A stretch of 64,000 bases of DNA from Cinnamomum chago. Taxonomy: Eukaryota > Streptophyta > Magnoliopsida > Laurales > Lauraceae. Shown piece by piece: positions 18,850 through 53,849 of the stretch. The translations under genes and the position numbers were made by a program. How positions within the stretch are numbered: the stretch's first letter is position 1; each line of letters starts with the position of its first letter. The DNA lies in the NCBI GenBank assembly GCA_038049695.1, contig CP142454.1:76237501-76301500 (forward strand), written 5' to 3'. Under the pieces are notes generated by a model, which was given only the letters and a program-made list of their open reading frames with translations, was not told where the DNA came from and ran no database searches.

Positions 18850-19195
18850 GCCCCTTTGGCCGAAATGGATTCGTGCTTGGGTGGAATGTACCAACCCTAA
18901 GGCAATCTCGATGGCCGGGCTTCATGCCTGGGTGGTATATACCGACCCTAAGGCAATCTCGATGGCCGAAATGGCTTCATGCCTGGGTGGTATATACCGA
19001 CCCTAAGGCAATCTTATCAGTGGCCATAATGGTTTCATGCCTGGGTGGTATATACCGACCCTAAGACAATCTCATCAGTAATCGTAATGACTTCATGTCT
19101 GGGTGGTATATACCGACCCTAAGACAATCTCATCAGTGGTCGTAATGGCTTCATGCTTGGGTGGTATATACGGACCCTAAAGCAATCTCATCAGT
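18850..19195. repeat. Internal tandem repeats of the old element (~58 bp x 6)
   Basis: About six units around the core CTGGGTGGTATATACCGACC then CTAAGGCAATCTC; spacing settles at 58 bp in the right half and is 51-55 bp at the left. The array lies between the ends of the two convergent coding regions. The core resembles the 49-bp unit of the young copy (CTAGGTGGCTGAGTGCCGAC). Confidence 0.8.
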
Positions 19196-19289
19196 GGCAC
19201 TGTCGCCGAGCTGCCGATAGTCGCCACCAAGTTCTATGACAATTAACAAGAATGACTACTTTCATTGATCTTGAGAATTTGATTACAGA

Positions 19290-33868: not shown

Positions 33869-36800
33869 TCATCTACTGGCCTTTTGATCTGTTGTTTGCC
33901 AAGAAGTTGCAGCAGTCATCTGTCCACCGATTGCAACAGCGGCCGACTCCACATGCGTGAGCAGATACCTGTATATTTTCCTATTTAGCCGATCCACCGT
34001 CCCAGTACGAATGGAGCAACCATTGCTGTTCTCTTTAGTGGTCTCAATCTCATCCAACCAGTCATTCACTCTCTTAATCTGCGACAGCATGCCTGCAACC
34101 TGACCCTTATCCGACAGTGCTGAGGCGTCTACATTGGCATCCAAGAACTTCTCAATAAAGCCCAGGAACCAGTCACGGGACTCCACTTGCAACGAATTGG
34201 CTAGATCAGCAGCTTCAGTTAGGCCAGCCCCTCGGACCCACTCAAGGGGAGGAGGTACCCTCGGCTTCTGACCAATGACGAGCCCCTTACCAGATCGACA
34301 TGGAGTTGAAGGTGAAGACAGCCTAGAGCTAACGGAAGCCCGAGGTTTGGTTTGAGTCTTCAATGCCCCGTTTTTCACCGAGTCTTCTATGATTACTGTA
34401 TATTGACTGCCTGCAATTGTCTGCGGACTTTGACTCAAAGCTGACCCTGCAGCCAATCCAGATGTGGGCTGTTTCTTAAACACTGTAAAAGATGACAAGT
34501 CAGTGGCCAATGCAGCTTGAACCCATGAAGTAGCAAGTTTGTGTTTCTTCAATGAGGTTTTCAAAGCTTCTTCCAACAGGTTTTCTTCGTGTTCCGGCAA
34601 TGATCCTGTGGGAATTGTTTTCGATAGGGAGTCTGCAACCAGAGCAGCTTGGCCCAAGGTGGCATGAAGGCTCAGGAATTGTTCCACGGTAGGCTGCGGG
34701 TTGTCCTCCTTGGCAGAGGAACTGAGCTCAGCATATATACTGTAGAAAGCAAAAGGAAAAAAGATCAATGCAAGAAACAACAGTTTTAATACTCTCAGGG
34801 CTCTCACTGGTTTCATGGGATATTGCGTAGCTTCAAGGGTATAATTCCTGTCACTTTCCACCAATAGGTCTATGTACTAAATCTGCTCCAAATGCAAATT
34901 AAATTATGGTCAGTTGAGACATATAAAAGATGTGTTTAAACGTTTAGAATCATTGGGCTTGTTTGTTTGCATTATAATACATAGAAATGCATGGTCAAAT
35001 GAGCTCCACCGAAGGATTATTAAAGAGGTGAAGTGTGAATGATATGAGGTGGCCATATAGATGGAAGCTTGACTTTCCTAGGATAGAATTAGTAGGGTGA
35101 TGCATGTTCATTTTCCATCTTCCTTTGATTCACTTTCCATTAAAAGAGATGTTATTTGATTGTCATTTTTTTTTATATTCACCTTTGATCTTCATTTTTA
35201 ACTACTTATGGCATGAATTACTATATATTTGGTTCCTATGTATTCTATGTGAACAAACAAGCCCTTTGAGTCAAACAACAGACCAGTGAATCTTTTCCAA
35301 GTGCAAATCAAATTGATCATTTAAAACCTGTCAGTTGAGAAATATAAGACTACGTTTGGAGACTCAAGAATCTTGAGTTGGAAATTAGCCAATAATTTCT
35401 CAGCTGACTGAGCACCTTTAAAATAAGACAAGAAAGTTGTTGAAAAGGTCAAGTGGCTAACTCTTTATTATGAACAAACACCTTGGCCAACGCCGGTTCA
35501 ACCCAGCTGAGTTCAGAATAGTTAACAATTATTTGAACATTAAGAGTGAAATAAATAAATGCCTAACGGATTTAATCAAGTTGAATTCACATATATTGGA
35601 GTTTCCCACAGTTTTTGTACTCATCAGCAAAAACGGCAAGGGTTTGATCATTGTCATCATTGAAGCCATATCCCATCCAACTGGAATTGTCAACTCAGTA
35701 GTTTGATATCTCAGATATAAATAGAGTTTCTTTATAGGGGATTTGACATATTAACCCCACTTAAACCCTACTTCCCCAATTTCATGACTGAAATTGAACT
35801 AATGTCACAAGCGTCATTTGACTCTGGTCCACATTTTTTTTACTTTTCTTCCCTGGATCCCATGATATCATGGGACCCAAATGTTTAAGGTTGAAAAGCC
35901 GGTACATTAAAAAATCTAGACTGTCTTCTTATGTAAACCTGGATCCCATGATATCATGGGATCCAGGGCAGAAAAGTAAAAAAAAAAAAATGTGGACCAG
36001 AGTCCAACGACCCAGGTGACATTAGTAGATTTTCAGTCATGAAATTGGGGGAACATGGTTTAAGGGGGATTAATATGTTAAATCCCCTTCTCTATATTCA
36101 GTTTATGAACATAATTTTACTTTTGAAAAGGTAATTGCAATGAGATTTAGTTTGTGGTTAAGAACTGCAATGTGATTTAGGACTTCTGTAAAGAACAGTT
36201 AGCAATCTGGGCCTCCAAGAATCATATGAAATGAATAAATATAGGAGAAAAGGTTAGTGATGTGCTTGGAATCACGTGAGTTCTTGAGGAGGTTAGCCTC
36301 TTTTAAAAGTTGTTGAGGAGGTTAGCCTCTTTTAAAAGTTGTATAAATGAGTTGGCTTCCATCATTTATCATAACACTAACCATGGCATTCGCATTTTTC
36401 ATTGCTACAGGAGAAAGCATAGTGTGGTACTCAGAGTCCAACACTGATGACATGGTCTAAGTCGGAATAGCATAAAAGACCACAAAGATGGATTTCTATT
36501 TTGAAATTGGGTTCTAAGGATGTATCTAAGGGTTATGTGATAAGGAGAATAATAAGATAGATTTGAGTTTGTATGGCGTGAAGTCTCTTGATTGATGATC
36601 ATGGCAAGCGCTTCCCGTTGTCAAATGGACAATAACAACAACAACAAAGTAGAAGAAGATTCCTGGCTCACAGCAACCAACATCATGGTTTTAAAATGGA
36701 TACTACATAACAGTTTCAGCACAACTGTTTCTGATTCTTTTGGTGGTAATGGTTTGAGTTAAAACAAGAATTTTTAAGGATTTATCTATGTCTAGAACAC

Positions 36801-38572: not shown

Positions 38573-41500
38573 ACCCTTCTCCCAAACTCAGGGTTGAGGT
38601 ACAATCAGATGTACCTAAAAAGTAAAAACAAGAGGTGATGCACCATTGACCTAAACTGAAGACTACAAAATTTTTCAACAGCATGTAAGTTGAATGGCTA
38701 TAACCATGGGTTACAGAGTACTAGAACAAAAATGAGCATATCAAGGAAGGACAATTGTCATATAGAAACACTGAAATTTGAGTCCCAAAATCAGGGTCTA
38801 GAATGATGGCCGTTATGTAGCAGTTTTTCTCGCTATAGTGTAAAACATAAATATAAAGGACAATGCAAACTACATGCACTATTAACTTGTACACTTCCTA
38901 AGCTTTTATCTACATTAAAACACCCTATAGCCCCAAAGAAAGGAGAAATTTAAATCTTCCATTTTCTAGGATTTCTTAAGAGAAATCAATATAAAAAGGG
39001 ATGAAATAGACCAACATAATGGTTATTATTATATCCGAATCAGCCAATACATAATGGTTTTGACTCTGATCATTGCGAAGTTCAAAACTGTGTTACAAAC
39101 CATGCCTAGGATTGAAGACAGTATGAATCATACCTTTCCAAGTTTTGCAAGATCTGGAGGAAGTGAAGCCCATGAAACACAGCCATCTGTCCACCTTCTG
39201 TTATTGATAATAACCTTGACCAAGTTTCCAAGGATGGGATTATTAGGTGATTCTGATGTTTTCTTTTAAACAGATGTCCTTTGCTTCCTTGACTTATCCG
39301 GACCATCCAAAGTTCCATTGTTGTTGCATTTCTTTGCAGGCATCTGAGCCTTGTTGTCCTCATCTTTAGATGAGAACTTGTCATTTGTAGCAGCCTTTCT
39401 CCGAGGAGCCTGTGTTGTAAAAGATGGTTATCTAACTGTAAGTGCAGAAATAATAATACTCACAAGATCAGGATGCCTCTTAGGACTTACTCAATGCATG
39501 GAGGAGATAGCTGCGACGACCTGAGCCTGAAAGAAGAGAAAGACAAAGGTCAGAGGACCCTGGCTATGGGCAGCGCAGGGCTCTCCGATGCTTAAGTCAG
39601 CAATGGATCGGAGAAGAAGCAGAAAAGAAGAAAGACTGTGTGTCTATGTGAGAATGCTTACCCCTTGCTCCCTTTGGCTCGTGCCTTATATACGGGACAG
39701 TCTTGGGTGAATGCCAGTGGGCTTGGTGATGTGACCTGGGTCACACCAGCCCACAAAGTCATTAATGAAGGTCCATCATAGCCCACACTGCATTTAATGT
39801 GGGTCCGATCAGCCCACAATGCATTTAATGTCAGTCACATTGGGCCTGATCCTGCCCTGATCTGGTGGTGGCTGAAGTCCCATCAGATCCCTTCCTTGGG
39901 CTTCGCCACGATAGGGCCGTGGCTATTAGCTGCAAGCGCAATTCTGCATTGCCGAGCTTGCATTGCAGAGACTGAACGGTATTCGCGGCCGAACTGAATT
40001 CTGTTTGGCCGAGACCAGCACGTAGTGCCGAGACCGAAGTAGATCGGATCGTAGCCGAGATCAAGGGACGTGGTCCCCCAAACAGTAGCTAACCGAGCAC
40101 ACCCTAGCCGAGACCAAGAGAAACTGGTTCACGGAATGGGCCCCCACACAATAGCCCCTCAGTTCTTGACCTCTAGGGCTCTCTCGGGCACTAAGGTTAA
40201 GAGCTGGACCGATTCCCCGCACTAGGGTTGAGAACTGATCCGATCTCCCGAGACGGACAGTGCTCGCCTTCCATCCGATTTTGTTTAAGGGTTCTGACTT
40301 ATTCGGCGCCGGACGCCGCCGCTGCTTCGTCTGCCAGAGATAATAAAGGGGGCAATAAATGCGGGGCTATGATTAGCATGGGAAGGCGGACCATCATCGC
40401 CGCAGCGCCACGCGTTATTGCCTGGTGGGTTCTCTTGTCCTTTCGAGGGGGCGTGCAACGCAAGCCGAGGCGACATCTCACGCGTGTCCCGCTTCGAATT
40501 CCGGAATGGCGCCCGTTCCCCCCCTTTATATTGCACTTCTGTCTTCTCCCTTTGTCATCTCTGCAAACGAACAGTGTCGAAGCTCTGCTAGAACCTCTGT
40601 TCGCCGGAACCTTCACTGCCAGAACCACCTCCATCGCCTCCTAGCTTCGCCCAGGACTCCCTTCAGGACCAGCGAGGGATCAGCGGCCTGAGTTGTGACT
40701 TCGCCCGAGTCTGTGAGTCTCCCTGCCTCGATCCTTCTCTCTTTTCATTCTGTATTTCTGTCCTTACCCCACCTAAGGTCTCCTCCGTTTCTCAGACATT
40801 CCACGGCTTAGACCTCTAGGGATTGTTAGGGTTCCTTAGATCCAGAGATGGGGATTTTTACTCACTGGATAGATTCCCAGTCGGGCCTGGCCACTCTTAG
40901 GAGAGTCTACATGATCCCAGACGATGTCCAGATCATGGCAGCCGACCCCTCCATCTACTCATCTCGCAACGGCTGGATGCCGTTTCCCCTGATAGCCGTG
41001 ATCGAGGGTGGGGTCAGATTCCCCTTGGCCCCCCTTCTTAGGTCTTGTTTGGAGACCTGGAGGCTTAGCCCCTGTCAGTTAATGCCCAATGGGTATAAGA
41101 TCATCATGGGCATCGCCGAGCTGAATAGGATTCTAGACATCAGCCTCGGCGTCCATGATATAGAGGATATATATGACCTCTGCAAGTCTAGGGAGGTGGG
41201 CACCTATTATCTTCGCATCAAGGCGAGGTGCCAACCCCTCGTCACGGCGCTGGAGGACTCCAATAAATACGCCGGAGATGACCGCCTGCTCGTCTCGGGA
41301 AACTGGGAGTTCGGCGAGACCGAGACCGAAGCAACTAGGAGGGTCCGAGTCCCTCGACGCCTCGGGACTCCACCGAGTAAAGACCTAACCCCCTGGGTTT
41401 CCGATTTCTTTCTTATGTTTGATTTCTGCTGCCAGATCCTAACTCGGCTGTTTTTCGCAGGCCTTTCCGAACGCAAGCGCGAAGCCCAGCTGAACGGTTG

Positions 41501-44500
41501 GAGAAGGCACTCACCTTGGCTGACCAAGGTGTACTGCTACCACGGCCACCACACAAGAGCTGCCTACTCTCTTCTGAAGTACGAGCCGAGATACGTGTCT
41601 TACACACGGAAATCCGGCAACCCGGAGAGATTCGCCCCCGATCCAGCAGAAACCAGCGGGACCGTCACGGTTGCGGAAGCGTCCGCAACGTTGGCCGTGG
41701 TCACGGGCATCCCGCTAAGGGAAATTGAAGAATATACCTCCGGAGCCGAGGTAGACTCTCCGACAAGGGAAATCGAGAACTATACTTCCGGAGCCGAGGC
41801 CGAAGTGGACAATATGGAGAGGCGTAGGCCCGCGTTTCAGCCGCGGAATTTGGCGGACGCCGTCGTCGGCAGCGGTAGACAGGCTGCCGCACCCCGCACT
41901 GCCCCGCCCTCCTTCGGGACCATCGTCCCTGCCAGAGTTGAGGCCCGACCTCCCCCAGACTTGGAAAGTGAGAGGCCGAGGAAAAAGGCGAAGGGGAAGG
42001 GGCCGGATCAGGAGGAGCGATCACGGCGACGTTCACCCCAAGCCGCGAGGGAGAGGGCGGTGGACGTGATGCCCGCTCCGGCAGTTCCTCTGGTGGAGAG
42101 TCCCTCCGAGCCCCAGGCGGCAACGTCCTCGGGTGCCGAACCGGCCGAGTTCAGGCCGGACATGGAGCTGAGGAAGGGGAGGCCACTAAATGCTGAGGAC
42201 AGACTGGTGGGGAGCCCAGATGTCATTGCGGCGCTCAGCCGAGCCTGTGCACTCCCCAGGGACATGGAGAGGCACAGGTCGGAAGACTCCCCCCTGCTGA
42301 TTATGAGGACCATACAGCACTCCCTCGCTGTAAGTGCCCGACTTTCCTGGTCACAGGTGTTTCTCTCTTTTGATATTTCTTGTTTTCGTGCTGAGCTTCT
42401 TTTGTTTGCTCCGCTGCAGGCTGTCCAAAGGCTCCAGATAGTCGCGGACAGCATAGCGGAGGAGGACAGTCGGTTGGCTCGCCTGGCAAAGGAAAAACAG
42501 AAAGCCGAATCCGAACTGCGAGCGGCCAAGGAGGAGCTGAAGGCGGAGGCGGCCAAGACTGCGGAGCTCAAGGCTCAGTCAGATATGATGGCCAGCGACC
42601 TCTGCAAAGCAAGGTCAGAGGGCTTCGAATGGCAAACGAAGCTCCAGGCAGAGGAGAAGAGTTCGGCGGGGTTCAAGGCCGAGCTGGAGCTGGAAAGGAA
42701 GGCGAAGGAGGAACTCCTTGCATCGAAGGAGGAACTCCTTGCATCGAAAAAAGCTGAGGTCGATGCCGCCTTCCTGGAGGGGACTGAGGAAGCTGCGAAG
42801 ATTTACGTTGATCAAATCACGGCACTCAGCCCGAAGCTGTACCGGCTCGGCTGCAAGGCCGTGTTGAAGAAGATGGGGGTTCCTGCAGATGATCCGATAC
42901 ATCAGAATCTCCCCGAGCTCGGAGAGGAGCCCCTAGATGAGGCCCTGGCCGAGACCCCTGCCACCCCGGCCGAAGTCCCTTCCGAGCCAACGCCTGACCC
43001 CGTTGAAGAAGCTCCTCAAGCCGAGGCCGCCGTGGTCGTCATCGAGGACCTAGAAGCAGAGCCATCGACTTGACTTCCTCTTTTTTCTTTTCTTTATAAA
43101 ATGTAGTCTTTGTTTCAAACTGTCTCGATGTAAATCAATGCTATCAATGAAAGACTTTTTCTCATATTTTTCTCCTGTGTGGTGTGGCTTTTACTTGCTT
43201 TCCTTTGTACGCTTTCCGTGAGTGTTGTGAATTTGGGTGTGACTTCGGACTAGAGTAGACCGACCTGATCAGGGTTCTCTGCGAGCGCTGACCCTTTGGA
43301 AGCCCCATGTATTTCGGCGAAACCAGATTTCCGTGTCGGAAGACTGGTGCCGTTTCGGCTGGTCTAGGTGGCTGAGTGCCAACCGTAACCATAACACGTT
43401 CGGCTGCTCGTCTAGGTGGCTGAGTACCAGCCTTAGACATGGGCCGTTTTGGCAACTCGTCTAGGTGGCTGAGTGCCAGCCTTAGATATCGGCCGTTTCG
43501 GCAACTCATCTAGGAGGCTGAGTGCCAACCTGAGACATGGTCCGTTTCGGCAACTCGTCTAGGTGGCTGAGTGCCAACCTTAGATATGGGCCGTGACGGA
43601 AACTCGTCTAGGTGGCTGAGTGCCGACCTTAGACATGGTCCGTTTCGGCAGCTCGTCTAGGTGGCTGAGTGCCAACCTTAGACATGGGCCGTGTCGGCAA
43701 CTCATCTAGGTGGCTGAGTGCCAACCTTAGATATGGGCCGTGGCGGATACTCGTCTAGGTGGCTGAGTGCCGGCCTTAGACATGGTCCGTTTCGGCAACT
43801 CGTCTAGGTGGCTGAGTGCCAACCTTAGATATGGGCCGTGACGGAAACTCGTCTAGGTGGCTGAGTGCCGACCTTAGACATGGTCCGTTTCGGCAGCTCC
43901 TCTAGGTGGCTGAGTGCCAACCTTAGACATGGGCCGTGTCGGCAACTCATCTAGGTGGCTGAGTGCCAACCTTAGATATGGGCCGTGGCGGATACTCGTC
44001 TAGGTGGCTGAGTGCCGGCCTTAGACATGGTCCGTTTCGGCAGCTCGTCTAGGTGGCTGAGTGCCAACCTTAGACATGGGCCGTTTCGGCAACTCATCTA
44101 GGTGGCTGAGTGCCAACCTTAGATATGGGCCGTGGCGGATACTCGTCTAGGTGGCTGAGTGCCGGCCTTAGACATGGTCCGTTTCGGCAGCTCGTCTATG
44201 TGGCTGAGTGCCAACCTTAGACATGGGCCGTTTCGGCAACTCATCTAGGTGGCTGAGTGCCAACCTTAGATATGGGCCGTGGCGGATACTAGTCTAGGTG
44301 GCTGAGTGCCGGCCTTAGACGGTCTTCCAACTTCGCACCATTGTCACTGTCAGGATGCCAGATTGCTACAAATTGTGGAGAACTGTAGTTTCATTGAATC
44401 CAGAAGCGTTGTACAAGTACAGAGACTAAAAATAGAATTTTTTGAGGTGTGAGGCGTTCCATGGTCTCGGTAGCGGACGTCCCTCCATGTCTTCGAGCCG

Positions 44501-47500
44501 ATAAGCCGACCGTCCAGCAATGGAAGTGACCTTAAACGGACCATGCCAATTCGGCGCTAGCTTCCCTTGATTCGGATCCCTGTCGGCTGGGAGTGTTTTC
44601 TTGAGAACCAGTTCCCCCACGCAGAACTTCCTTTCTCTGACGTTCTGGTTATAGCCCCTGGCTAGCCGCTGCTGGTAGACGGCCAGTCTGACTGCCGCCG
44701 CTTCTCTTCTTTCGTCTGCCAAATCCAGTTCCCTGGCCAAGTTAGTCTCGTTCTGTCCTTGGTCAAAGAGTTCGGACCTCAGAGTGGGGAGGCCGATCTC
44801 CAAAGGGATGACCGCTTCCATCCCGTAGGCGAGCGAGAAGGGGGTAGCCGAAGTGGAACGCCTTGGGGTGGTCCTGTAAGCCCACAGGACGCTCGGCAGT
44901 TCTTCCACCCATCTCCCCTTCGCTTGGTCCAGCCGCTTCTTGAGCCCATCGAGGATCACCTTGTTGGAGATCTCGGCCTGGCCGTTACTCTGTGGGTAAG
45001 CAGGCGTGGAGTAATGGTTTCGGATGCCGAGATCCTGGCAGAAGGTCTTGAAGAGTTTAGAGTCGAACTGAGTTCCGTTGTCCGAAACCAGCGCTCTGGG
45101 AATGCCAAACCTTGTGACGACATTCTTCCACACAAAATTCTTGGAGTCTCGCTCTGTGATGGATGAAAGTGGCTCTGCTTCGATCCATTTGGTGAAGTAA
45201 TCTGTCGCCACAATAAGCCATCTCTTGTTCCCTGGGGTTCGGTGGAGCGGGCCCACTATGTCGAGCCCCCACTGGGCGAATGGCCACGGGCTAGAGAGCG
45301 GGCTGAGATCCTGCGCGGGCTGATGGAGAGAGTGTGAGAACTTCTGGCACTTCTCGCACTTCTTCGCATATACCTGCGCATCTTTCTGCATATACGGCCA
45401 CCAGTAACCCTGGCTAATGGCTCGGTAAGATAGGGATCTTCCTCCGATATGGCTCCCGCAGATTCCTTCGTGTATCTCGAAAAGGAGGTCCTCGACCTTA
45501 CTTGGATGGACGCACTGGAGGTACGGTCCCGAGAACGATTTCCTGTAGAGCTTGACTTCGGGAGATAGCCAAAACCGAGCTGCCTTGAGTCTGACCCGGT
45601 GGGCCTCACCACTGTCCTCGGGAAGCCTGTCGTCCTTCAGGTAGGTGATAATAGGGTCCATCCAGCTCGGACCGAGACCGATGCATAACACTTCCCGAGG
45701 TGAACGGAGCTCAATGCTGGGCGCAGCTAGCGATCCGACTTCGACGCTCCTCTTTTTCCCTGCCTCAACAGCACTGGCCAAGTTAGCCAAGGCGTCTGCG
45801 TGAGAGTTCGCTTCTCTGCCGATCTGCCTGACTTCGGCCGACTGAAATTGTACCAGCAGCTTCTTAGCCAGGGCCAAGTACGCGGCCATCCGGTCGTCGC
45901 GAGCCTGGTAGTTCCCAGTCAGCTGGTTTGTCACCAACTGTGAATCACTGAAGACCACCAGCTGTTGAGCTCCGAGGATATTGGCACTGTTAAGTCCGGC
46001 TAAAAGGGCTTCGTACTCAGCTTCATTGTTTGACGCCTTGAAGTCCAGGGTCAGAGCCTGCTCGATGACCAGTCCTTCTGGCGATTGGAGAACAACTCCT
46101 GCTCCGGCTCTTCTCGAGGTGGAAGATCCGTCGACGAAGATTTTCCAAACTGGGGTCTCGGCTTGAGATGGTGATTGTTCAGAACTCGTGGGAGCCCCAT
46201 GCTCCTCGCCCCCCAGTTCGGTGCCGAGCTGGGTTGGTGCCGAACTTGAATCAAACTCGGCGAGGAAATCTGCCAGAACCTGGGCTTTTATTGCTGTCCG
46301 TGGCTGATACTGAATCTCATACTGCCCTAGTTCGACAGCCCATCGGGAGATTCTTCCTGAAAAGTCAGCCTTCTTGAAAACAGATTGGAGTGGGTGCTCC
46401 GTAACAACCACAATAGAATGGGTTTGAAAGTAATGGGAGAGCTTTCGCGAGGCGCTAACGAGCGCCAAGGCGAGCTTCTCCAGAGGCAGATACCTGGTCT
46501 CGGCATCAATAAGGGTCTTGCTCGTATAATATACCGGTTTCTGAACCTTGTCCTCTTCTCGGATGAGGACCGAGCTGACCGCATGATCCGAGACCGCTAA
46601 GTATAAATACAGGGTCTCCTCGTGGGTCGGGGTTGACAACAACGGTGGTGATGAAAGGTAAGCCTTGAGCTGCTGCAAGGCGTGGTCACATTCTGGGGTC
46701 CATTGGAATTTAGAATTTTTTCGAAGAAGATGAAAGAAAGGTCGGCACTTATCTGAAGATTTGCTGATGAAGCGATTCAGTGCCGCGGCCATTCCTGTAA
46801 GCTTCTGGACCTCCTTGACCGAAGTTGGACTCTGCACTCTGAGGATAGCCGAGATCTGATCTGGGTCTGCCTCAATGCCTCTGCGTGTAACCAGGCTGCC
46901 CAAGAACTTGCCGGAACCAACACCGAAGGCGCACTTCGAGGCGTTAAGCTTCAGCCGGAACTTCTTTAGAGTGGCGAAGATCTCGGCCAAGTCTGACAGA
47001 TGATCCCGTGCCTGCTTGGACTTGACCACCATGTCATCGATGTAAACCTCCACGGTGTTGCCGAGCTGATCGTGAAACATCTTGGTGACAAGTCTCTGGT
47101 AGGTGGCCCCTGCATTCTTCAGCCCAAACGGCATCACCTTATAACAGTAGGTTCCCCTGGGCGTGATAAACGCTGTCTTCTCTTCATCTGGCCCAAACAG
47201 TGGGATCTGGTGATAGCCGCGGTAGGCATCAAGGAAGCTCATTCTATCATGCCCGGCCGTGGCGTCGATCAGCTGGTCGATCTTTGGCAAGGGGAAGCTG
47301 TCCTTGGGACAGGCCTTGTTGAGGTCAGTAAAATCGACGCACACCCTCCACTTGCCAGTCTTCTTCTTGACGACCACCGGGTTGGCTAGCCACTTCGGGT
47401 ACTGAACTTCTCTGATAGCGCCGGCCTGAAGTAGCTTATCCACTTCCTCGACGACGGCTTCGGTCTGCGGGACCCCAGTCCTCCGCGCCTTCTGCATCAC

Positions 47501-50500
47501 AGGTTTGTGGTTAGGGTCAACATTTAGTTTGTGACACATTACCTCGGGGTCGACGCCAGGCATCTCCTGAGGCGTCCAGGCGAAGGCATCTCTGTTCTGC
47601 ATCAGGAACTGGGCCAGTTCGGACCTTTCCGGCTCTCCAAGCTGGCTGCCGAGTAGAAAGAACCGATCCGGGTCCTTCTGGTCGATCCGGACCTCGGTCA
47701 ATTCCTCGACGCTCTTCCTGCCCGGATCTTGGCCGAGCTCATCCAGCCCCTGCTCCAGGTTCTTCTCCATCTCGGCCACATTGACCTCCTTGGGCTCTTG
47801 CTCCCCAGGTACCACAGCTGTCAAGCACAGCTTAGCTGCCTGCTGATCTCCTCTGACCGTGATAATCTCAATTCGGCCGCTCTCTCCTTCCCACGGAAAC
47901 TTCAGCCTCTGGTGGAGGGTGGAAGGGACTGCTTCCAGGCTATGGAGCCAAGACCTGCCCATTATAGCATTGTAGGGCGAGGGTGCGTCGATCACCATGA
48001 AGGTTGCCATGACAGACGCGCCACCGACCTCGACCTTGAACGTCACTTTCCCCTTAGGATAAACAGGTTTGGCGCTGAAGCCGATAAGGGGAACTCGAGC
48101 CTCCTGCAGATCTTTCTCCGTCAGTCCCATCCTTCGAAAGCTGTCGAAGTAAAGGACCTCGGACGAACTGCCGGGGTCAACAAGGACTTTCTTCACAGTG
48201 CAATTCTTCACGCCCTGCTTAGAGCAATCGAACTTCAGAGTCACGATCAGGGGGTCGTTGTGGGGGAGCTGCACCCCTTCTAGATCTGCATCAGTAAACC
48301 TGATCTCGGGACGCTCCCTCCGAGCCCTTTTCGGTGCTGAACTGAGTTCGGCGGCCATGACATGTTTGCCGTGAGAGGCTTTCCTGGCTTCGGCACGTGC
48401 TTGGTTACTCCCCTTGGGCGGGGGTGCCAGATGGATAACGTCAATTATCTTCTCTGTCCCGTCGCTGTCGTGACCCCCTTCGTCTCGGCGCGGGGCTCGG
48501 GTGTCGGCCCTGGTTTCTCTCCTGACAAACTCTTGCAGGTGTCCATCCTGGACAAGCTTCTCTAAATGCGACCGCAGTATCCTGCAATCTTCAGTCTTAT
48601 GGCCGCCCTCCTTGTGATAGGAACAGAACTTCGTCTGATCTCGTCTAGAAGGGTCGCCTTGCATGGGCTCTGGCCAGCTGAAGTACGGCCTGCTCTTGAT
48701 CTTATACATGATTTTGTGGATTGGCATCTTGAAGACCGTGTTGACCGCCTGGAATGCGTCCTCTATCAGCCTGGGTCGCTTGTTTCTTTCCGAGACGAAC
48801 GCATGAGGCCTTGCCGAGCTGGTGGGCGCCCAACGCCTGTTTGGCTCATCTCTCCGCCGCTCCTCTCTCCGAGGTTCACTCCTCCGAGACGGTCCCCCGT
48901 CTTGCTTGGATGTCCTCCCACCCCGGTCTTTCAGCGCGGCTCCATGGTTTTCCCGAGCGCGGATCTGGTCATCTTCTTGGGCAATGTACCGGTTGGCGAT
49001 GGACATGAGCGCTGCTATGGAAGACACCGGGTTCCTAGCCAAGTCCTTGCGGAGATCGCTGTCTGGCAGCAAGGCATTCTGGAATGCGAAGACGGCAACC
49101 TCGTCCTTGGAGCTCTCTATCTGACTGTAGACCGCCCAGAACCGCTTGGCGAACTGGGTGACGTTCTCTCCTTGCTTCATCTTCAAGGCCATGATGTCTG
49201 CATCTGTCTTCGGAAGGACTCTGTAGGCCTGGAACTTCTTCAAGAAGGACTGCTGGAGCTGCTGCCAGCTCGAAATGGCCCCCTCCGGTAGTGCACAGAA
49301 CCACTTCAGGGGGAGGTCACCCAGACTGGAAGAAAAAACTCTACAGTTCAGGTGACCCTCATCTCCCCAGACAGACATCCTCTGGGAGAAGTGCCTGAGA
49401 TGCGTAGCTGGATCCGAGACCCCATCATAGGTGACGAATCTTGGTACGGTGAACTTCTTGGGTAAGGGGTACCTCCTGATGTCTTGGGAGAAAGGAGACG
49501 CACCGAGATCAACGGGGTTACAGCAAGCATCCTTTTGGTCTCGGCCGAAGCCGGCTACCTCCAGGTTGCGCTGGACCGTTTCCCTTATGTGTGCGTCCAG
49601 CCATTCCTGGTCTCGGTACATGTTCTCCGGAATGGTTTCGGACGCCTTCCTGGAATAGCTACGGCTGGTGCTTGAGCCTTCATCTCGGGTTCGGTCGTCC
49701 CTTTTCCTGTTCAAGTGGTCCCTCAGATCCTCCTTTGAGGAAGAGATGCGCGTAACACGAGTAACCCTCTCCTCATGTTGTCGCTGGGATCGCTCCTGAC
49801 GAGTCCGCTGCTGCTGGGACTGCTCCTGACGAGTCCGCTGCTGCTGTTGAGACCGTTGCTGCTGGGACTGCTCCCTAAGAGTCCGCTGCTGCTGCCTTGC
49901 TGAGCCCGCAGCCTTCTCCAGCTGCTGCTGGAGCTGGCGGATTAGAGCATCCTTTTCCCTGAGGGCCTCGTTCTGTGCCTTAATCTCCCGAAGGGTGGAG
50001 TTCAAGCTGTCGCCAGGGTTGTAGTCATCATCCTCCTCATCCTCGACGTCCTCGACGTGTCCTTCCTGACCTGAAGGGCGTGGTCCATCGACCACTGGGG
50101 ACTTATCCTGCTGGTCTCGCCCTGTCAGGAGACCTGCAGGCTGCTGGGTGTCTCCCCTCCCGGGAGCAGACTCTGTACGGAGGTCACGCTGCTGGACGTT
50201 GATCCGGATGAGAGCGCGTTCAGCATCGTCCTCTGCGACTACCTGCTTCCCAGCCCTCTGCTTGTCAGGGGGCGGTCCTGCATGCTTTGTCTTGGAAGTC
50301 TCTCCGCTTTTCGCAGTTCTCCTCGTCATGGTATTTAGGAATAGGAATAGGAAAGATTATAGAAATCCCTTCCCACAGACGGCGCCAATTGTAAGTGCAG
50401 AAATAATAATACTCACAAGATCAGGATGCCTCTTAGGACTTACTCAATGCATGGAGGAGATAGCTGCGACGACCTGAGCCTGAAAGAAGAGAAAGACAAA

Positions 50501-51160
50501 GGTCAGAGGACCCTGGCTATGGACAGCGCAGGGCTCTCCGATGCTTAAGTCAGCAATGGATCGGAGAAGAAGCAGAAAAGAAGAAAGACTGTGTGTCTAT
50601 GTGAGAATGCTTACCCCTTGCTCCCTTTGGCTCGTGCCTTATATACGGGACAGTCTTGGGTGAATGCCAGTGGGCTTGGTGATGTGACCTGGGTCACACC
50701 AGCCCACAAAGTCATTAATGAAGGTCCATCATAGCCCACACTGCATTTAATGTGGGTCCGATCAGCCCACAATGCATTTAATGTCAGTCACATTGGGCCT
50801 GATCCTGCCCTGATCTGGTGGTGGCTGAAGTCCCATCAGATCCCTTCCTTGGGCTTCGCCACGATAGGGCCGTGGCTATTAGCTGCAAGCGCAATTCTGC
50901 ATTGCCGAGCTTGCATTGCAGAGACTGAACGGTATTCGCGACCGAACTGAATTCTGTTTGGCCGAGACCAGCACGTAGTGCCGAGACCGAAGTAGATCGG
51001 ATCGTAGCCGAGATCAAGGGACGTGGTCCCCCAAACAGTAGCTAACCGAGCACACCCTAGCCGAGACCAAGAGAAACTGGTTCACGGAATGGGCCCCCAC
51101 ACACTAACTATTGAGCTTGCAATGGTAAAACAACACAAAGATAGTGTGTGCGTGCGTGCA

Positions 51161-51221
<61 letters not shown>

Positions 51222-53849
51222 CTGGTTTATTGTCAAAGCAACCACTGGGCCATCTACATTTATTCATACATTATACAGAATTTTGAGATTCTGTGATTCC
51301 TAAGGGCACATTTAGAAACAGCTAGGGGTTCTGTGTCTTGCAGAATCCACCATGTACTTTTTCCATGGACACCTCAGTTGTGGACTCCGCAAGCCGCAGA
51401 ATTGGCAATGTTTATTTGGTATATGACCGAGAAAGTGGGGAGAGAGTGCACAGATCTGTGGAAAATAAAAATCCCAGTTTCCCAATTGGACTACAAAATC
51501 CTCAAAGACGTGTATCGTGGATTGTGGCTGATGTTTTTCTGCAACATCTCCGCAGAAAATCTCCTCACCCTATAACAGAAACTTCACTTTTTCCATGGAA
51601 ATTCCACTGCACAAATGTGCCCTAAATAGAAAGTAGGCCTTCAAATAAGCGTGTTTATGCGTTTTTGGTAATTCTTGTTTTGGCTATATCTTAAGCAAAT
51701 AAGTTCAGAATTGAATTCCGGTTTTTTTTTTTTACGATCCTGAAGATTAGGACTTTCAATTTCTGTCATTATCTCAATTTTTTATTCCGAATTTAATTAT
51801 TTAAAGCTTTGTAAGCCTTTGTGGCCGGGGGAATTGGATGAAAGAATTAATTTGCTCTTGAGTTTTGGACTCATTGTTTTCTCTTTCTTGGTATTCGCGA
51901 ACGAATCAACAAGTTGGAGTTTCTTTGTGAGGTTCTCTATCTTTCCTATAAGCTTCCGCTACGTCAATGTTTTAAAAGCTTAATCACTTACAACCCAAAA
52001 AAGAGTCCTAGCATATCAAAAGCCATTTAACTAGTACTCTGCAAAGAACTTCATGTTTCAATAAAATTCTATGCATTTAGCTGCATTTCTGAATCTCAAT
52101 TAACACTCTTTCCTGCATAAATATTCTTCTCTTTCAGTAAAGATACAGAGGAAAAATAAGAACTCATGAACCTATCATGAACCTTATCCATAGAACCCAA
52201 TGCAATTTTAATAAGACAAATATTTGAGTAGTAAAAGCACAGAGGTGCTAATACCCAACTAAACCCTGTCCAACAAGAGCACTTATTCACATTGAAATAA
52301 CAAAATCAGGGCCAAGAACATTGTTCAATTAGATGATGAGCTATGTCACAACTCACAACAATGAGATATCATGGGTTTGATCTCGGATAAACATAATAAA
52401 AACACTGAAACTTTAGAAAAGTTGATTCAGAAACAGGGTTGATTCTGTTAGAGATTATCTATGATCTCTGTTAATAAGTTTGTTAGGATGTTAGTGATAA
52501 GGTTAGTTTAGTATTTGACTATATATGTAGATCTTTTCATTTAATGGAACTTATGGTGATGTGATTTTATGGAAATGTGTTGATTCTTGAATACCTAAAC
52601 AGAGTGGAACCAGCAGAACACAAACAAGAATAAAAAGTTTCTAATTTCACAGGATTCAAAGATGATATATAACATAAAACTAGATTCTCAGAAAGAACCT
52701 AAATGAACAGAAGAAAGAAGAACTTATTCTTGTGCTTTTGATAGGTATAGTTTAATTCATTCCAAAAACATGAAAAACAGTTCCAAAGCATGCTTGAAGT
52801 CCTCAACTACAAGCTCTACTTTAGCAACGAAAAGTTGTTCATGTATCAAATAGCAACACAAAAGAAACAAACAAACATAAGTAATGATAAGCAACACTCA
52901 CAGAGGTACTCCGAGCATTTGGTTTCAGATCAGTTTTATTCACCCTTGAACTCAACTTCTCTCCTCCCTCCATCTCCTCATTCCCTTCCCAGCTTCTCCT
53001 CAAAGCCTAGGGCCCTAATTCAATCCCATGAACCAACTTTTTTATTGAATTCCCCATCCCCGTCCTCTTTCCCACTGAGTTTGCCCTAAAAACACTGGCT
53101 ACCTTCTCCACCAACCCCTGCTTCGCGGTAGACTTGTCGGGCCCTTTGATCTTCACTTGCTGCTTAACACCATTTGCAAAATTTTCAAATGAGGTGGGCA
53201 GTGAATAACAACTAGCCGGGGATGATAGGATCGACCGTGAATTCAATGAATTAGATCTAAACACAAATTCCTGCTTCTCTATTGCATTTAGTGCAGGCTT
53301 TGACAGCAGAGAATTCGATCTGATGTGAGCAGCCTTCTTCTTCTCTGACTCTTCCATCTTAAATCCATTCAACTTCATCAACTTGGATTTCTCTCTCTCT
53401 CCATTTGGGTGGTTGCTTAAGCCTTTGGGTGGTGACATTTTTTCTATGGGGCTTGATCCTGGTGTATTAAGAAAGCAGAGGGAATGTGTGGCAACCAGGT
53501 CTTCTGGGCTACCAATGCAAGGGTGACGCCCAGGGACCGGCCTCACTCCCCGGAGAATTGGAACTGGTGTCGCAGCCTCAATTCGCTGGACATGGATGAA
53601 CTGACCCAATTGCAATTTGTCACTGAGGATGAGATCGTCGTGCTCATCTGGGAGAGAGACAAATGTGGCATGCGAGGAATCTGAGACCTTTAGATAGAAT
53701 CCCCGGTTTGGGAACAATTCGCCCCCTGCGAGCGCAGGGACAATGCTGATGACCTGAAGCAGCGAGGAGCGGTTCTCGCCGGCAACCTTAATGTCAGTGT
53801 TCATGTGCTGCAGAAGCTTCAGGAGAACTCCAGGAACCAAAGTTGCCAT
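33869..53849 (-). CDS. DUF936-family protein gene, split by a retrotransposon and carrying an in-frame stop
   Basis: Plant-specific DUF936 protein, function not established. Exon 1: 53849 down to 53103 (AAG|GTAGCC, 249 codons) or 53034 (TTG|GTTCAT, 272 codons), both in phase. Exon 2: 39134-39409. Exon 3: 37780-37871. Exon 4: 33869-34739. All phases agree; about 661 residues expected. Exon 1 has the highly conserved N-terminus ([58 protein letters not shown]) and serine-rich, basic repeats ([10 protein letters not shown]). Exons 2-4 give [40 protein letters not shown] and the helical C-terminus. The start is ATG at 53849. Oddities: codon 48 of exon 2 is TAA (39266-39268), truncating the product to about 300 residues; and intron 1 holds an 11.7-kb LTR element ending 26 bp from the exon 2 acceptor. 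It may be a non-functional allele, or the stop may be a sequencing error. Confidence 0.85.
34955..35264. mobile_element. MITE family A, copy 3 (best preserved)
   Basis: 310 bp with inverted ends GGGCTTGTTTGTTTGCATTA and the complement GGGCTTGTTTGTTCACATAG. Interior as in the copies at 4384 and 25980. It lies in DUF936 intron 3. Target duplication unclear. Confidence 0.75.
35737..36087. mobile_element. Mutator-type MITE with long terminal inverted repeats
   Basis: 351 bp with arms of roughly 150 bp. Left begins GGGGATTTGACATATTAA, complement of right begins GGGGATTTAACATATTAA. Both arms contain CCTGGATCCCATGATATCAT and an A/T-run next to GTGGACCAGAGTC. Flanked by a 9-bp duplication with one mismatch, TTCTTTATA / TTCTCTATA, which fits Mutator-like elements. 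It lies in DUF936 intron 3. Confidence 0.8.
36284..36341. repeat. Perfect 29-bp tandem duplication
   Basis: TTGAGGAGGTTAGCCTCTTT plus TAAAAGTTG occurs twice in a row without mismatch, so it is recent. It lies in DUF936 intron 3. Confidence 0.85.
36342..37779. other. DUF936 intron 3, remainder
   Basis: AT-rich intron sequence up to exon 3. No coding region, RNA gene or transposon end recognised. Confidence 0.4.
37872..39133. other. DUF936 intron 2
   Basis: Contains a T-run (about 38106-38123) and, at about 38140-38440, a diverged stretch with TGTTGGACACG...TCTGACACATG and GTTTAAAGTAAGATTTGTA that resembles 1200-1570 in calreticulin intron 6, probably one old MITE family. The poly-C run is listed separately. 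Confidence 0.4.
38540..38572. repeat. (C)33 homopolymer
   Basis: Thirty-three uninterrupted C residues (poly-G on the strand of the surrounding gene) in DUF936 intron 2. A counterpart of the (G)30 run at 1823-1852. Confidence 0.8.
39437..40150 (-). repeat. 3' LTR of the young element
   Basis: 714 bp, TG...CA on the minus strand. The adjoining tract at about 40151-40165 (minus strand CTGAGGGGCTAT) is the likely polypurine tract. Its outer edge lies 26 bp upstream of the DUF936 exon 2 acceptor. Confidence 0.95.
40525..40532 (+). promoter_or_regulatory. TATA-like box of the opposite-strand coding region (young element)
   Basis: TTTATATT after a C-rich stretch, about 315 bp before the ATG at 40848. 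The old element keeps TATAAATAG at the equivalent place, suggesting a real antisense promoter inside the element. Confidence 0.5.
40848..43073 (+). CDS. Opposite-strand protein of the young Tat element (Transposase_28-like, coiled coil)
   Basis: A 741-codon frame running against gag-pol. Residues about 1-170 ([58 protein letters not shown]) resemble the plant 'putative gypsy type transposon' domain (Pfam Transposase_28), function unknown. The middle is acidic then basic and Pro/Arg-rich ([10 protein letters not shown], possible nuclear signal). Residues about 525-655 form an Ala/Glu/Lys coiled coil; the tail is Pro/Glu-rich. Two likely introns, 41377-41460 (GTAAAG...TTTTTCGCAG) and 42330-42419 (GTAAGT...CCGCTGCAG), are both multiples of three and free of stops, so spliced (683 residues) and unspliced forms are both open. 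Extra antisense genes are known in Tat elements, such as gene 23 of Grande. A captured host gene is the alternative. Confidence 0.8.
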   Translation: MGIFTHWIDSQSGLATLRRVYMIPDDVQIMAADPSIYSSRNGWMPFPLIAVIEGGVRFPLAPLLRSCLETWRLSPCQLMPNGYKIIMGIAELNRILDISLGVHDIEDIYDLCKSREVGTYYLRIKARCQPLVTALEDSNKYAGDDRLLVSGNWEFGETETEATRRVRVPRRLGTPPSKDLTPWVSDFFLMFDFCCQILTRLFFAGLSERKREAQLNGWRRHSPWLTKVYCYHGHHTRAAYSLLKYEPRYVSYTRKSGNPERFAPDPAETSGTVTVAEASATLAVVTGIPLREIEEYTSGAEVDSPTREIENYTSGAEAEVDNMERRRPAFQPRNLADAVVGSGRQAAAPRTAPPSFGTIVPARVEARPPPDLESERPRKKAKGKGPDQEERSRRRSPQAARERAVDVMPAPAVPLVESPSEPQAATSSGAEPAEFRPDMELRKGRPLNAEDRLVGSPDVIAALSRACALPRDMERHRSEDSPLLIMRTIQHSLAVSARLSWSQVFLSFDISCFRAELLLFAPLQAVQRLQIVADSIAEEDSRLARLAKEKQKAESELRAAKEELKAEAAKTAELKAQSDMMASDLCKARSEGFEWQTKLQAEEKSSAGFKAELELERKAKEELLASKEELLASKKAEVDAAFLEGTEEAAKIYVDQITALSPKLYRLGCKAVLKKMGVPADDPIHQNLPELGEEPLDEALAETPATPAEVPSEPTPDPVEEAPQAEAAVVVIEDLEAEPST
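43350..44325. repeat. Tandem array, 49-bp unit x ~20, with higher-order structure
   Basis: The core CTAGGTGGCTGAGTGCC recurs every 49 bp from 43364 to 44294 (about 20 units). Variant units follow a pattern: a five-unit block (~245 bp) starting near 43556 recurs near 43801, and a three-unit block (~147 bp) recurs after that. It lies between the convergent 3' ends of the plus-strand frame (43073) and gag-pol (44426). Confidence 0.92.
44426..50329 (-). CDS. Gag-Pol polyprotein of the young Tat element
   Basis: One open frame of 1967 residues. In order: basic, glutamine-rich N-terminus; Gag core ([37 protein letters not shown]); Cys/His knuckle ([15 protein letters not shown]); aspartic protease ([14 protein letters not shown]); reverse transcriptase ([28 protein letters not shown]); gypsy RNase H; a second RNase H ([28 protein letters not shown]); integrase with zinc-binding head ([13 protein letters not shown]) and core ([30 protein letters not shown]); and a C-terminal segment ([20 protein letters not shown]) without a chromodomain. 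It replicates the element through an RNA intermediate in virus-like particles. The frame looks whole. Start chosen at the first ATG after the primer-binding site. Confidence 0.95.
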   Translation of the reverse strand: MTRRTAKSGETSKTKHAGPPPDKQRAGKQVVAEDDAERALIRINVQQRDLRTESAPGRGDTQQPAGLLTGRDQQDKSPVVDGPRPSGQEGHVEDVEDEEDDDYNPGDSLNSTLREIKAQNEALREKDALIRQLQQQLEKAAGSARQQQRTLREQSQQQRSQQQQRTRQEQSQQQRTRQERSQRQHEERVTRVTRISSSKEDLRDHLNRKRDDRTRDEGSSTSRSYSRKASETIPENMYRDQEWLDAHIRETVQRNLEVAGFGRDQKDACCNPVDLGASPFSQDIRRYPLPKKFTVPRFVTYDGVSDPATHLRHFSQRMSVWGDEGHLNCRVFSSSLGDLPLKWFCALPEGAISSWQQLQQSFLKKFQAYRVLPKTDADIMALKMKQGENVTQFAKRFWAVYSQIESSKDEVAVFAFQNALLPDSDLRKDLARNPVSSIAALMSIANRYIAQEDDQIRARENHGAALKDRGGRTSKQDGGPSRRSEPRREERRRDEPNRRWAPTSSARPHAFVSERNKRPRLIEDAFQAVNTVFKMPIHKIMYKIKSRPYFSWPEPMQGDPSRRDQTKFCSYHKEGGHKTEDCRILRSHLEKLVQDGHLQEFVRRETRADTRAPRRDEGGHDSDGTEKIIDVIHLAPPPKGSNQARAEARKASHGKHVMAAELSSAPKRARRERPEIRFTDADLEGVQLPHNDPLIVTLKFDCSKQGVKNCTVKKVLVDPGSSSEVLYFDSFRRMGLTEKDLQEARVPLIGFSAKPVYPKGKVTFKVEVGGASVMATFMVIDAPSPYNAIMGRSWLHSLEAVPSTLHQRLKFPWEGESGRIEIITVRGDQQAAKLCLTAVVPGEQEPKEVNVAEMEKNLEQGLDELGQDPGRKSVEELTEVRIDQKDPDRFFLLGSQLGEPERSELAQFLMQNRDAFAWTPQEMPGVDPEVMCHKLNVDPNHKPVMQKARRTGVPQTEAVVEEVDKLLQAGAIREVQYPKWLANPVVVKKKTGKWRVCVDFTDLNKACPKDSFPLPKIDQLIDATAGHDRMSFLDAYRGYHQIPLFGPDEEKTAFITPRGTYCYKVMPFGLKNAGATYQRLVTKMFHDQLGNTVEVYIDDMVVKSKQARDHLSDLAEIFATLKKFRLKLNASKCAFGVGSGKFLGSLVTRRGIEADPDQISAILRVQSPTSVKEVQKLTGMAAALNRFISKSSDKCRPFFHLLRKNSKFQWTPECDHALQQLKAYLSSPPLLSTPTHEETLYLYLAVSDHAVSSVLIREEDKVQKPVYYTSKTLIDAETRYLPLEKLALALVSASRKLSHYFQTHSIVVVTEHPLQSVFKKADFSGRISRWAVELGQYEIQYQPRTAIKAQVLADFLAEFDSSSAPTQLGTELGGEEHGAPTSSEQSPSQAETPVWKIFVDGSSTSRRAGAGVVLQSPEGLVIEQALTLDFKASNNEAEYEALLAGLNSANILGAQQLVVFSDSQLVTNQLTGNYQARDDRMAAYLALAKKLLVQFQSAEVRQIGREANSHADALANLASAVEAGKKRSVEVGSLAAPSIELRSPREVLCIGLGPSWMDPIITYLKDDRLPEDSGEAHRVRLKAARFWLSPEVKLYRKSFSGPYLQCVHPSKVEDLLFEIHEGICGSHIGGRSLSYRAISQGYWWPYMQKDAQVYAKKCEKCQKFSHSLHQPAQDLSPLSSPWPFAQWGLDIVGPLHRTPGNKRWLIVATDYFTKWIEAEPLSSITERDSKNFVWKNVVTRFGIPRALVSDNGTQFDSKLFKTFCQDLGIRNHYSTPAYPQSNGQAEISNKVILDGLKKRLDQAKGRWVEELPSVLWAYRTTPRRSTSATPFSLAYGMEAVIPLEIGLPTLRSELFDQGQNETNLARELDLADERREAAAVRLAVYQQRLARGYNQNVRERKFCVGELVLKKTLPADRDPNQGKLAPNWHGPFKVTSIAGRSAYRLEDMEGRPLPRPWNASHLKKFYF
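50370..50387 (-). promoter_or_regulatory. Primer-binding site of the young element
   Basis: Two bases inside the 5' LTR the minus strand reads TGGCGCCGTCTGTGGGAA, a plant gypsy-type tRNA primer site. TGGCGCC matches several tRNA 3' ends; I do not assign the tRNA. Confidence 0.7.
50390..51103 (-). repeat. 5' LTR of the young element
   Basis: 714 bp, identical to the 3' LTR apart from two G/A differences. A TATATAAG promoter box on the minus strand lies at 50638-50645. Confidence 0.95.
51144..51217. repeat. (GT)n(GA)n microsatellite
   Basis: A TG-rich run passes directly into about 19 GA units, in DUF936 intron 1 just beyond the 5' LTR. Confidence 0.85.
51304..51622. mobile_element. Harbinger/Tourist-type MITE
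   Basis: 319 bp with inverted ends GGGCACATTT...AAATGTGCCC, flanked by TAA on both sides (51301-51303, 51623-51625). The 3-bp TAA/TTA duplication is the mark of PIF/Harbinger elements. It lies in DUF936 intron 1. Confidence 0.7.
51626..53030. other. DUF936 intron 1, proximal part
   Basis: AT-rich sequence without recognisable coding region or transposon ends. Confidence 0.4.

Follow-up and report, generated by a model that had tools for sequence, protein, structure and literature searches.

What gene, if any, is carried by a long open frame that lies opposite to the coding strand of a young plant retrotransposon? The frame in question is found in a 64,000-nt stretch of Cinnamomum chago contig CP142454.1 (positions 76,237,501 to 76,301,500; assembly GCA_038049695.1), hereafter the window, to which all coordinates refer. 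It begins with ATG and runs uninterrupted for 741 codons (40848–43073, plus strand), antisense in a minus-strand Tat-type element, and each of the other five frames of this interval contains 15–29 stops. An earlier note, made from the letters of the window, had described it as an intact 741-codon gene running against gag-pol. The uninterrupted frame and the antisense strand were found as described; a single intact coding frame was not, as the gene appears to be cut by two introns. It does not overlap gag-pol but sits between the end of pol and the 3′ long terminal repeat (LTR), converging on pol. Removing the putative introns would take out 58 of the 741 codons and leave a predicted product of 683 residues, encoded by three exons (Table 1). 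The reading favored here, with a probability of roughly 0.6, is an antisense accessory gene of a Retand-type Tat retrotransposon, with its own promoter, three exons and a nuclear accessory protein. That the antisense gene contains introns is very probable in its own right; that its protein is a nuclear regulator of the element is possible, at slightly worse than even odds. Judged from sequence, the long frame is part of a real, selectively maintained gene of known kind, apparently interrupted by two introns. A chance open frame was also considered, and is ruled out by the genomic copies and by selection.

Putative introns of the antisense gene

Fifty-seven complete genomic copies were compared, of which 30 (L001–L030) were chosen by full-length DNA match and 20 (L043–L062) for long frames; L031–L039 were the same places as nine of L001–L030 and were omitted, L040 and L068 were incomplete and were dropped, and L069 and L070 were analyzed apart. 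Both candidate introns start with GTAAAG or GTAAGT and end with CAG after a T-rich run, and their T content (38 and 44%) compares with 15–22% in the exons. Two such T-rich GT–AG segments occur in the frame vs. none in 2000 codon shuffles, by criteria set after the segments had been viewed. Both introns were present in all 57 copies. Among the first 30, the splice dinucleotides were intact throughout, save for a donor in L007 and an acceptor in L016; at the two introns of five far copies, GT was retained in 5/5 and 4/5 and AG in 4/5 and 5/5. An old copy of the element in the same window has stretches of 80 and 69 nt, different in sequence, at both intron places, the second with AT rather than GT as its donor. 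Net length relative to the window copy changed by multiples of three in exon 2 of seven of the eight changed copies (the exception being the decayed L042), and 7 of 18 net length changes in the introns were not multiples of three. The exon–intron layout is common to the families compared, and intron length is free to vary.

In the window copy, both introns have lengths divisible by three. It is scarcely credible that the 741-codon frame, uncut, is the gene: it is uninterrupted in the window copy, and read-through gives at least 650 codons in 45 of 57 copies, a count that is inflated because L043–L062 were chosen for long frames, whereas the T-rich composition, the splice sites kept in far copies, the lengths not in threes and the copies that are open only when spliced all argue against it. 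Spliced frames of at least 600 codons were obtained for 50/57 copies, and five are open only in spliced form: L010 and L021 have their sole stop inside intron 2, read-through shifts the frame in L063, whose intron 1 measures 83 nt, and in L065, whose intron 2 measures 74 nt, and L066, fetched without its 5′ end, gives 605 open codons. Seven copies (L002, L019, L023, L041, L042, L064, and L067) are short whether spliced or not. A less biased set was provided by 150 scored matches to exon 1, of which 57 keep the frame through both introns and 93 stop early; 43 of these 93 stops fall inside the two intron ranges vs. about 12 expected if stops were uniform, where the intron-2 range was widened for insertions and deletions, 16 further ends just past it are unexplained, and the relatedness of the copies rules out a formal test.

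The same 57 of 150 matches that stay open through both introns, together with the stop-free, multiple-of-three introns of the window group, are what would be expected if both forms were made, a spliced mRNA encoding 683 residues and an intron-retaining mRNA encoding up to 741, as with the spliced and unspliced HBZ messages of human T-cell leukemia virus type 1 (HTLV-1), which provide a precedent (PMC10186651). Such dual output is nevertheless unlikely: retention shortens the product in L010, L021, L063, L064, L065, L066, and L067, intron 1 of L070 is 71 nt long, and intron polymorphisms are few and have no clear codon pattern (shared, 0/2/3 in intron 1 and 0/1/1 in intron 2). Loss of an intron was observed in 0/57 copies, of which the 30 chosen by full-length DNA match could hardly have revealed it.

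Copies, selective constraint and age of the introns

The earlier note had held that the gene belongs to the family and was not a chance capture in one copy, and that the old copy keeps a remnant of it; both points stand. All 40 scored DNA matches to the antisense gene, the window copy included, were full length at 95–100% identity, a protein search with exon 1 gave 4182 candidates, of which 150 were scored and all 150 matched, and the old family has the gene too, in decayed form (Table 1). Copy L065 is a mosaic relative to the window copy (98% identical in exon 1, 82 and 76% in exons 2 and 3, changing near frame position 600–720), as might arise from template switching between families.

Ratios of amino-acid-changing to silent substitution rates (dN/dS) for the spliced gene against the window copy were 0.31 (L050), 0.24 (L063), 0.32 (L065), 0.21 (L066), and 0.22 (L067); those among L065, L066, and L067 were 0.17–0.19, and those against decayed copies were 0.15 (L042) and 0.24 (L041), with dS saturated. 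A whole-gene value near 1, which the earlier note had named, jointly with a lack of plus-strand transcripts, as refuting its claim, was not seen; estimates between family lineages ranged from 0.17 to 0.32. In matched blocks against the old copy the ratio was 0.21 and that of pol 0.05, so the antisense gene appears constrained yet faster than pol. Exon 1 of L065 has a ratio of 0.92 on almost no changes (dN 0.015, dS 0.016). Within the 30 young copies, changes shared by at least two copies were silent or changing in numbers of 9:4, 31:37, and 5:1 (exons 1, 2, and 3) and single-copy changes in numbers of 11:15, 28:24, and 16:17, plus three stops, excluding three sites with more than two letters; this test is crude because even single-copy changes exceed the rough neutral expectation of 33% silent. 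Purifying selection on the exons overall is supported by these comparisons, and exon 2 is, on the same comparisons, loosely held. A functional antisense transcript, acting through double-stranded RNA with the genomic RNA or through small RNAs with the protein incidental, has been raised as a possibility for such elements (PMC7264820); it is very unlikely here, as the spliced frame has a dN/dS far below 1, a constraint that an RNA role does not need.

The age of the introns was addressed through the Transposase_28 family (PF04195), for which all 150 scored places in the genome (of 2100 candidates) exceeded the curated cut-off; two of them, L069 and L070, were examined in detail, a small sample. 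Exon 1 aligned to these over most of its length, with an hhalign probability of 96.6% (E 6.7e-10, 153 columns, 29% identity), and, both being PF04195 matches above the cut-off, homology of the antisense gene to cut-off-passing frames is established. Their intron 1 (66 nt, or 71 nt in L070) follows a shared VP..G motif in phase 1, at most two codons from the window position, and a later intron of 75 or 69 nt, in phase 0, precedes the helical segment as in the window gene, a correspondence drawn from position and phase rather than from a sequence alignment. An extra intron-like stretch lies mid-gene in L069 (80 nt), with a similar one in L070 and none there in the window's family. The L070 gene runs toward a convergent pol C-terminus (47.5% identity, E 1.4e-21). 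Because introns occur at matching places and phases in L069 and L070, they are probably ancestral: a gene layout with introns apparently arose before these families and that of the window diverged, and the introns may date back to the origin of the gene family.

Predicted protein, promoter and host element

An N-terminal Transposase_28-like domain, as proposed by the earlier note, was the best Pfam match of the whole frame (16.7 bits, E 0.0089), the only other listed match having E 0.69; exon 1 alone scored 19.4 bits (E 0.0013), still under the curated cut-off of 26.2. PF04195 was found in 10/10 related exon-1 proteins at E up to 1. Plant mobile domains were not listed in Pfam scans of the frame, exons 1 and 3 or the related exon-1 proteins, a search of solved structures with an exon-1 profile gave six matches up to E 10, none meaningful (best E 0.39), and a search of a plasmid collection gave no match, as expected. 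The domain's name, and introns that would fit a gene acquired as genomic DNA or in antisense, could mark the gene as a DNA-transposon leftover that was inserted into an ancestral element and has no present role. This origin is highly improbable: Pfam scans of the frame and of exons 1 and 3 listed no transposase catalytic domain, the gene shows purifying selection, and the discussion in a published survey reports no similarity of such frames outside transposable elements and disfavors transposon insertion (PMC11963269).

Downstream of this domain, the protein of the three-exon gene would carry a basic block that is kept in the aligned relatives (Table 1) and that resembles, in motif type, a nuclear signal. 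Of the nuclear, self-associating protein suggested by the earlier note, the nuclear part is thus plausible; self-association through a long coiled coil is weaker. In the C-terminal third, a hydrophobic-moment script placed the 3.5-residue moment above the other periods tested at residues 463–504 only, a heptad signal that windows elsewhere in the protein match. The acidic tail has a VVVIED core, presumably SUMO-binding by motif rule, that is kept amid variable surroundings in all 53 copies whose exon-3 frame reaches 180 residues (four copies with shorter frames were unscored; L067 has IVTIED in another frame).

A TATA-like box lies about 320 nt 5′ of the start codon; in L041 and L042, TATAAATAGAG occurs in the 345 nt ahead of the start codon. 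The 5′ leader includes a candidate 83-nt intron (40713–40795, GTGAGT…CTCAG), whose donor is kept in 4/4 family copies aligned and whose acceptor is lost in L043; L041 and L042 have no clear equivalent.

On the favored reading, this TATA-type promoter inside the element would drive antisense transcription against gag-pol, and the transcript would be spliced at two small spliceosomal introns into three exons and translated to a protein consisting of an N-terminal Transposase_28 domain, a basic linker with the nuclear-signal-like block, a helical, possibly self-associating segment and an acidic, SUMO-interaction-like tail. The protein would re-enter the nucleus, bind DNA or chromatin through the Transposase_28 domain, and tune transcription or integration of its own element, akin to the spliced antisense HBZ of HTLV-1. 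The introns would be copied along through reverse transcription; from known biology, they should survive it, since their splice sites are unreadable in the genomic RNA, which is of the opposite strand.

Several points weigh against this reading. Splicing, promoter and translation are all deduced from sequence, and the AlphaFold model of exon 1 is unusable (mean predicted local distance difference test score 36.8). The choice of the first 30 copies favors intron presence, that of L043–L062 favors read-through lengths in threes, and the copies are related, so that counts across them are not independent. In the decayed copy L041, exon 1 differs in length by 13 nt, which is not divisible by three, and identity to the window copy in L066, L067, L042, and L041 is 53–65% in the introns and 60–68% in exon 2, so the introns are marked off by length change and not by identity alone. 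The dN/dS values are descriptive pairwise estimates, exon 2 of L050 reaches 0.64, and the shared polymorphisms of exon 2 in young copies include more changing than silent sites. The 3.5-residue moment also leads in windows 64–105, 127–168, and 190–231, so the heptad signal is not specific to the C-terminus. In the old copy, a different basic stretch (DRPGKRVRAEG) stands at the place of the basic block, which was not seen, and no SUMO-like motif was seen in its tail.

Table 1. Positions in the window of the antisense gene, its predicted features and the elements that carry it.
Feature	Position	Strand	Basis or remark
TATA-like box of antisense gene, CCCCTTTATATT	40527..40532	+	predicted; 4/4 family copies aligned
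Exon 1, codons 1–176 plus 1 base	40848..41376	+	contains Transposase_28 match
Transposase_28 (PF04195) match, residues 49–92	40992..41123	+	Pfam, below curated cut-off
Putative intron 1, 84 nt	41377..41460	+	phase 1, GTAAAG…TTCGCAG, 38% T
Exon 2	41461..42329	+	middle basic and Pro-rich, loosely conserved
Nuclear-localization-like block	41970..41999	+	ERPRK[KR][AV]KGK in 6/6 aligned relatives
Putative intron 2, 90 nt	42330..42419	+	phase 0, GTAAGT…CTGCAG, 44% T
Exon 3	42420..43073	+	Ala/Glu/Lys-rich, proline-free segment with partial heptad pattern, followed by acidic tail and stop
SUMO-interaction-like motif VVVIED	43032..43049	+	in acidic C-terminal tail
Young Ty3/gypsy LTR retrotransposon, Tat-type (Retand or near)	39437..51103	-	LTR comparison, flanks, Pfam domains
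Target site duplication CTAAC of young element	39432–39436 and 51104–51108		flanks
3′ LTR, 714 bp	39437..40150	-	LTR comparison
5′ LTR, 714 bp	50390..51103	-	LTR comparison
gag-pol, single 1967-codon open frame	44426..50329	-	frame list; Pfam on three separate pieces
49-bp tandem array, 19.6 copies	43362..44320	.	between antisense gene and pol end; repeat register 43309–44441
Decayed three-exon copy in old element	about 16209–18247	+	intron-like stretches at same places

The host element is as young as the earlier note had estimated (about 0.3% LTR divergence): its LTRs differ at 2 of 714 positions, and it is flanked by a target site duplication. A primer-binding-site-like TGGCGCC begins 2 nt inside the 5′ LTR. 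Pfam finds gag, reverse transcriptase (RT), RNase H (RH), a second RNase-H-like domain (RVT_3) and integrase (INT) in gag-pol, ordered in the third piece as RT_RNaseH (37–137), RVT_3 (199–318), and rve (483–579). A second RNase-H-like domain (aRH) between RH and INT is common to Retand and Ogre (PMC6317226); its presence here agrees with membership in the Tat clade and does not tell Retand from Ogre. The old element has a tandem array of a 58-bp unit (18857–19198), placed between antisense gene and pol as is the 49-bp array of the young element.

Opposite gag lies a 241-codon frame (48566–49291, plus strand); nothing marks it as a gene, and it is probably a shadow of the gag coding frame. On either side of the young element lie a DUF936 frame (53007–53864, minus strand, E 3.7e-57) and a DUF6857 frame (33869–34864, minus strand, E 3.1e-73). 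DUF936 and DUF6857 are domains that occur together; the two frames have the appearance of exons from the beginning and the end of a single host gene, and the element may lie within one of its introns and be oriented the same way.

Known antisense genes and spliced retroelements

Extra antisense genes were described in the earlier note as present in some Tat elements, and the kind of gene has been published. In a survey of Retand elements, 97% of clusters had an antisense TRP28 frame (Vicient 2025, PMC11963269), which, like the window gene, is antisense between pol and the 3′ LTR, contains Transposase_28 and has tandem arrays near it. Five of six conserved TRP28 residues (G21, P25, L34, P46, N47, and F55) are found in the window gene at an offset of 34 (residues 55, 59, 68, 80, and 81), the sixth being Ile (PMC11963269). 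The gene kind, nearly universal in Retand, is thus known, and its introns were not found reported: the survey used ORF Finder, and its main text has no word starting "intron," whereas the window gene is read here as three exons (PMC11963269). No report of introns in antisense Retand genes was found in the literature searched; the original Grande and Retand papers, outside that search, may have noted splicing. The separate antisense Smc, TolA or topoisomerase frames of the TRP28 survey may correspond to this same gene's helical exon.

Should the introns be ancestral, a survey of open frames alone would misjudge the gene, either splitting it or reading introns as protein; with a correct gene model the right cDNA can be made, so that the role of the antisense protein becomes directly testable. 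Introns in an element copied through RNA suggest that the gene came in as genomic DNA or in antisense, and their loss would be expected if the antisense mRNA were ever copied back. In the widest interpretation, which is unlikely as a whole, Retand elements carry an ancient multi-exon nuclear gene on the antisense strand, which escapes splicing in reverse transcription, and the TRP28, Smc-like and TolA-like frames are its exons; its protein would work on SUMO-marked chromatin and so govern the timing and site of the element's expression, resembling in action, but in plants, the spliced antisense regulators of retroviruses.

Three known systems resemble the window gene in different respects. Gene23 of Grande is an antisense accessory gene of similar layout, with an upstream promoter that drives its transcription and a nuclear protein product (Gomez-Orte 2013, cited in PMC7264820); compared by description only, it shares with the window gene the antisense accessory position and, as predicted for the latter, its own promoter and a nuclear protein (PMC7264820). 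Ogre, also of the Tat lineage, has a spliceosomal intron in a retrotransposon; that intron, however, is on the sense strand between GAG-PROT and RT, whereas those of the window gene would be antisense (PMC6317226). HBZ of HTLV-1 offers an analogy in action, with a spliced antisense mRNA and a nuclear protein with a coiled-coil type (bZIP) segment; it is an unrelated protein whose transcription starts in the 3′ LTR, whereas the TATA-like box of the window gene lies inside the element (PMC10186651).

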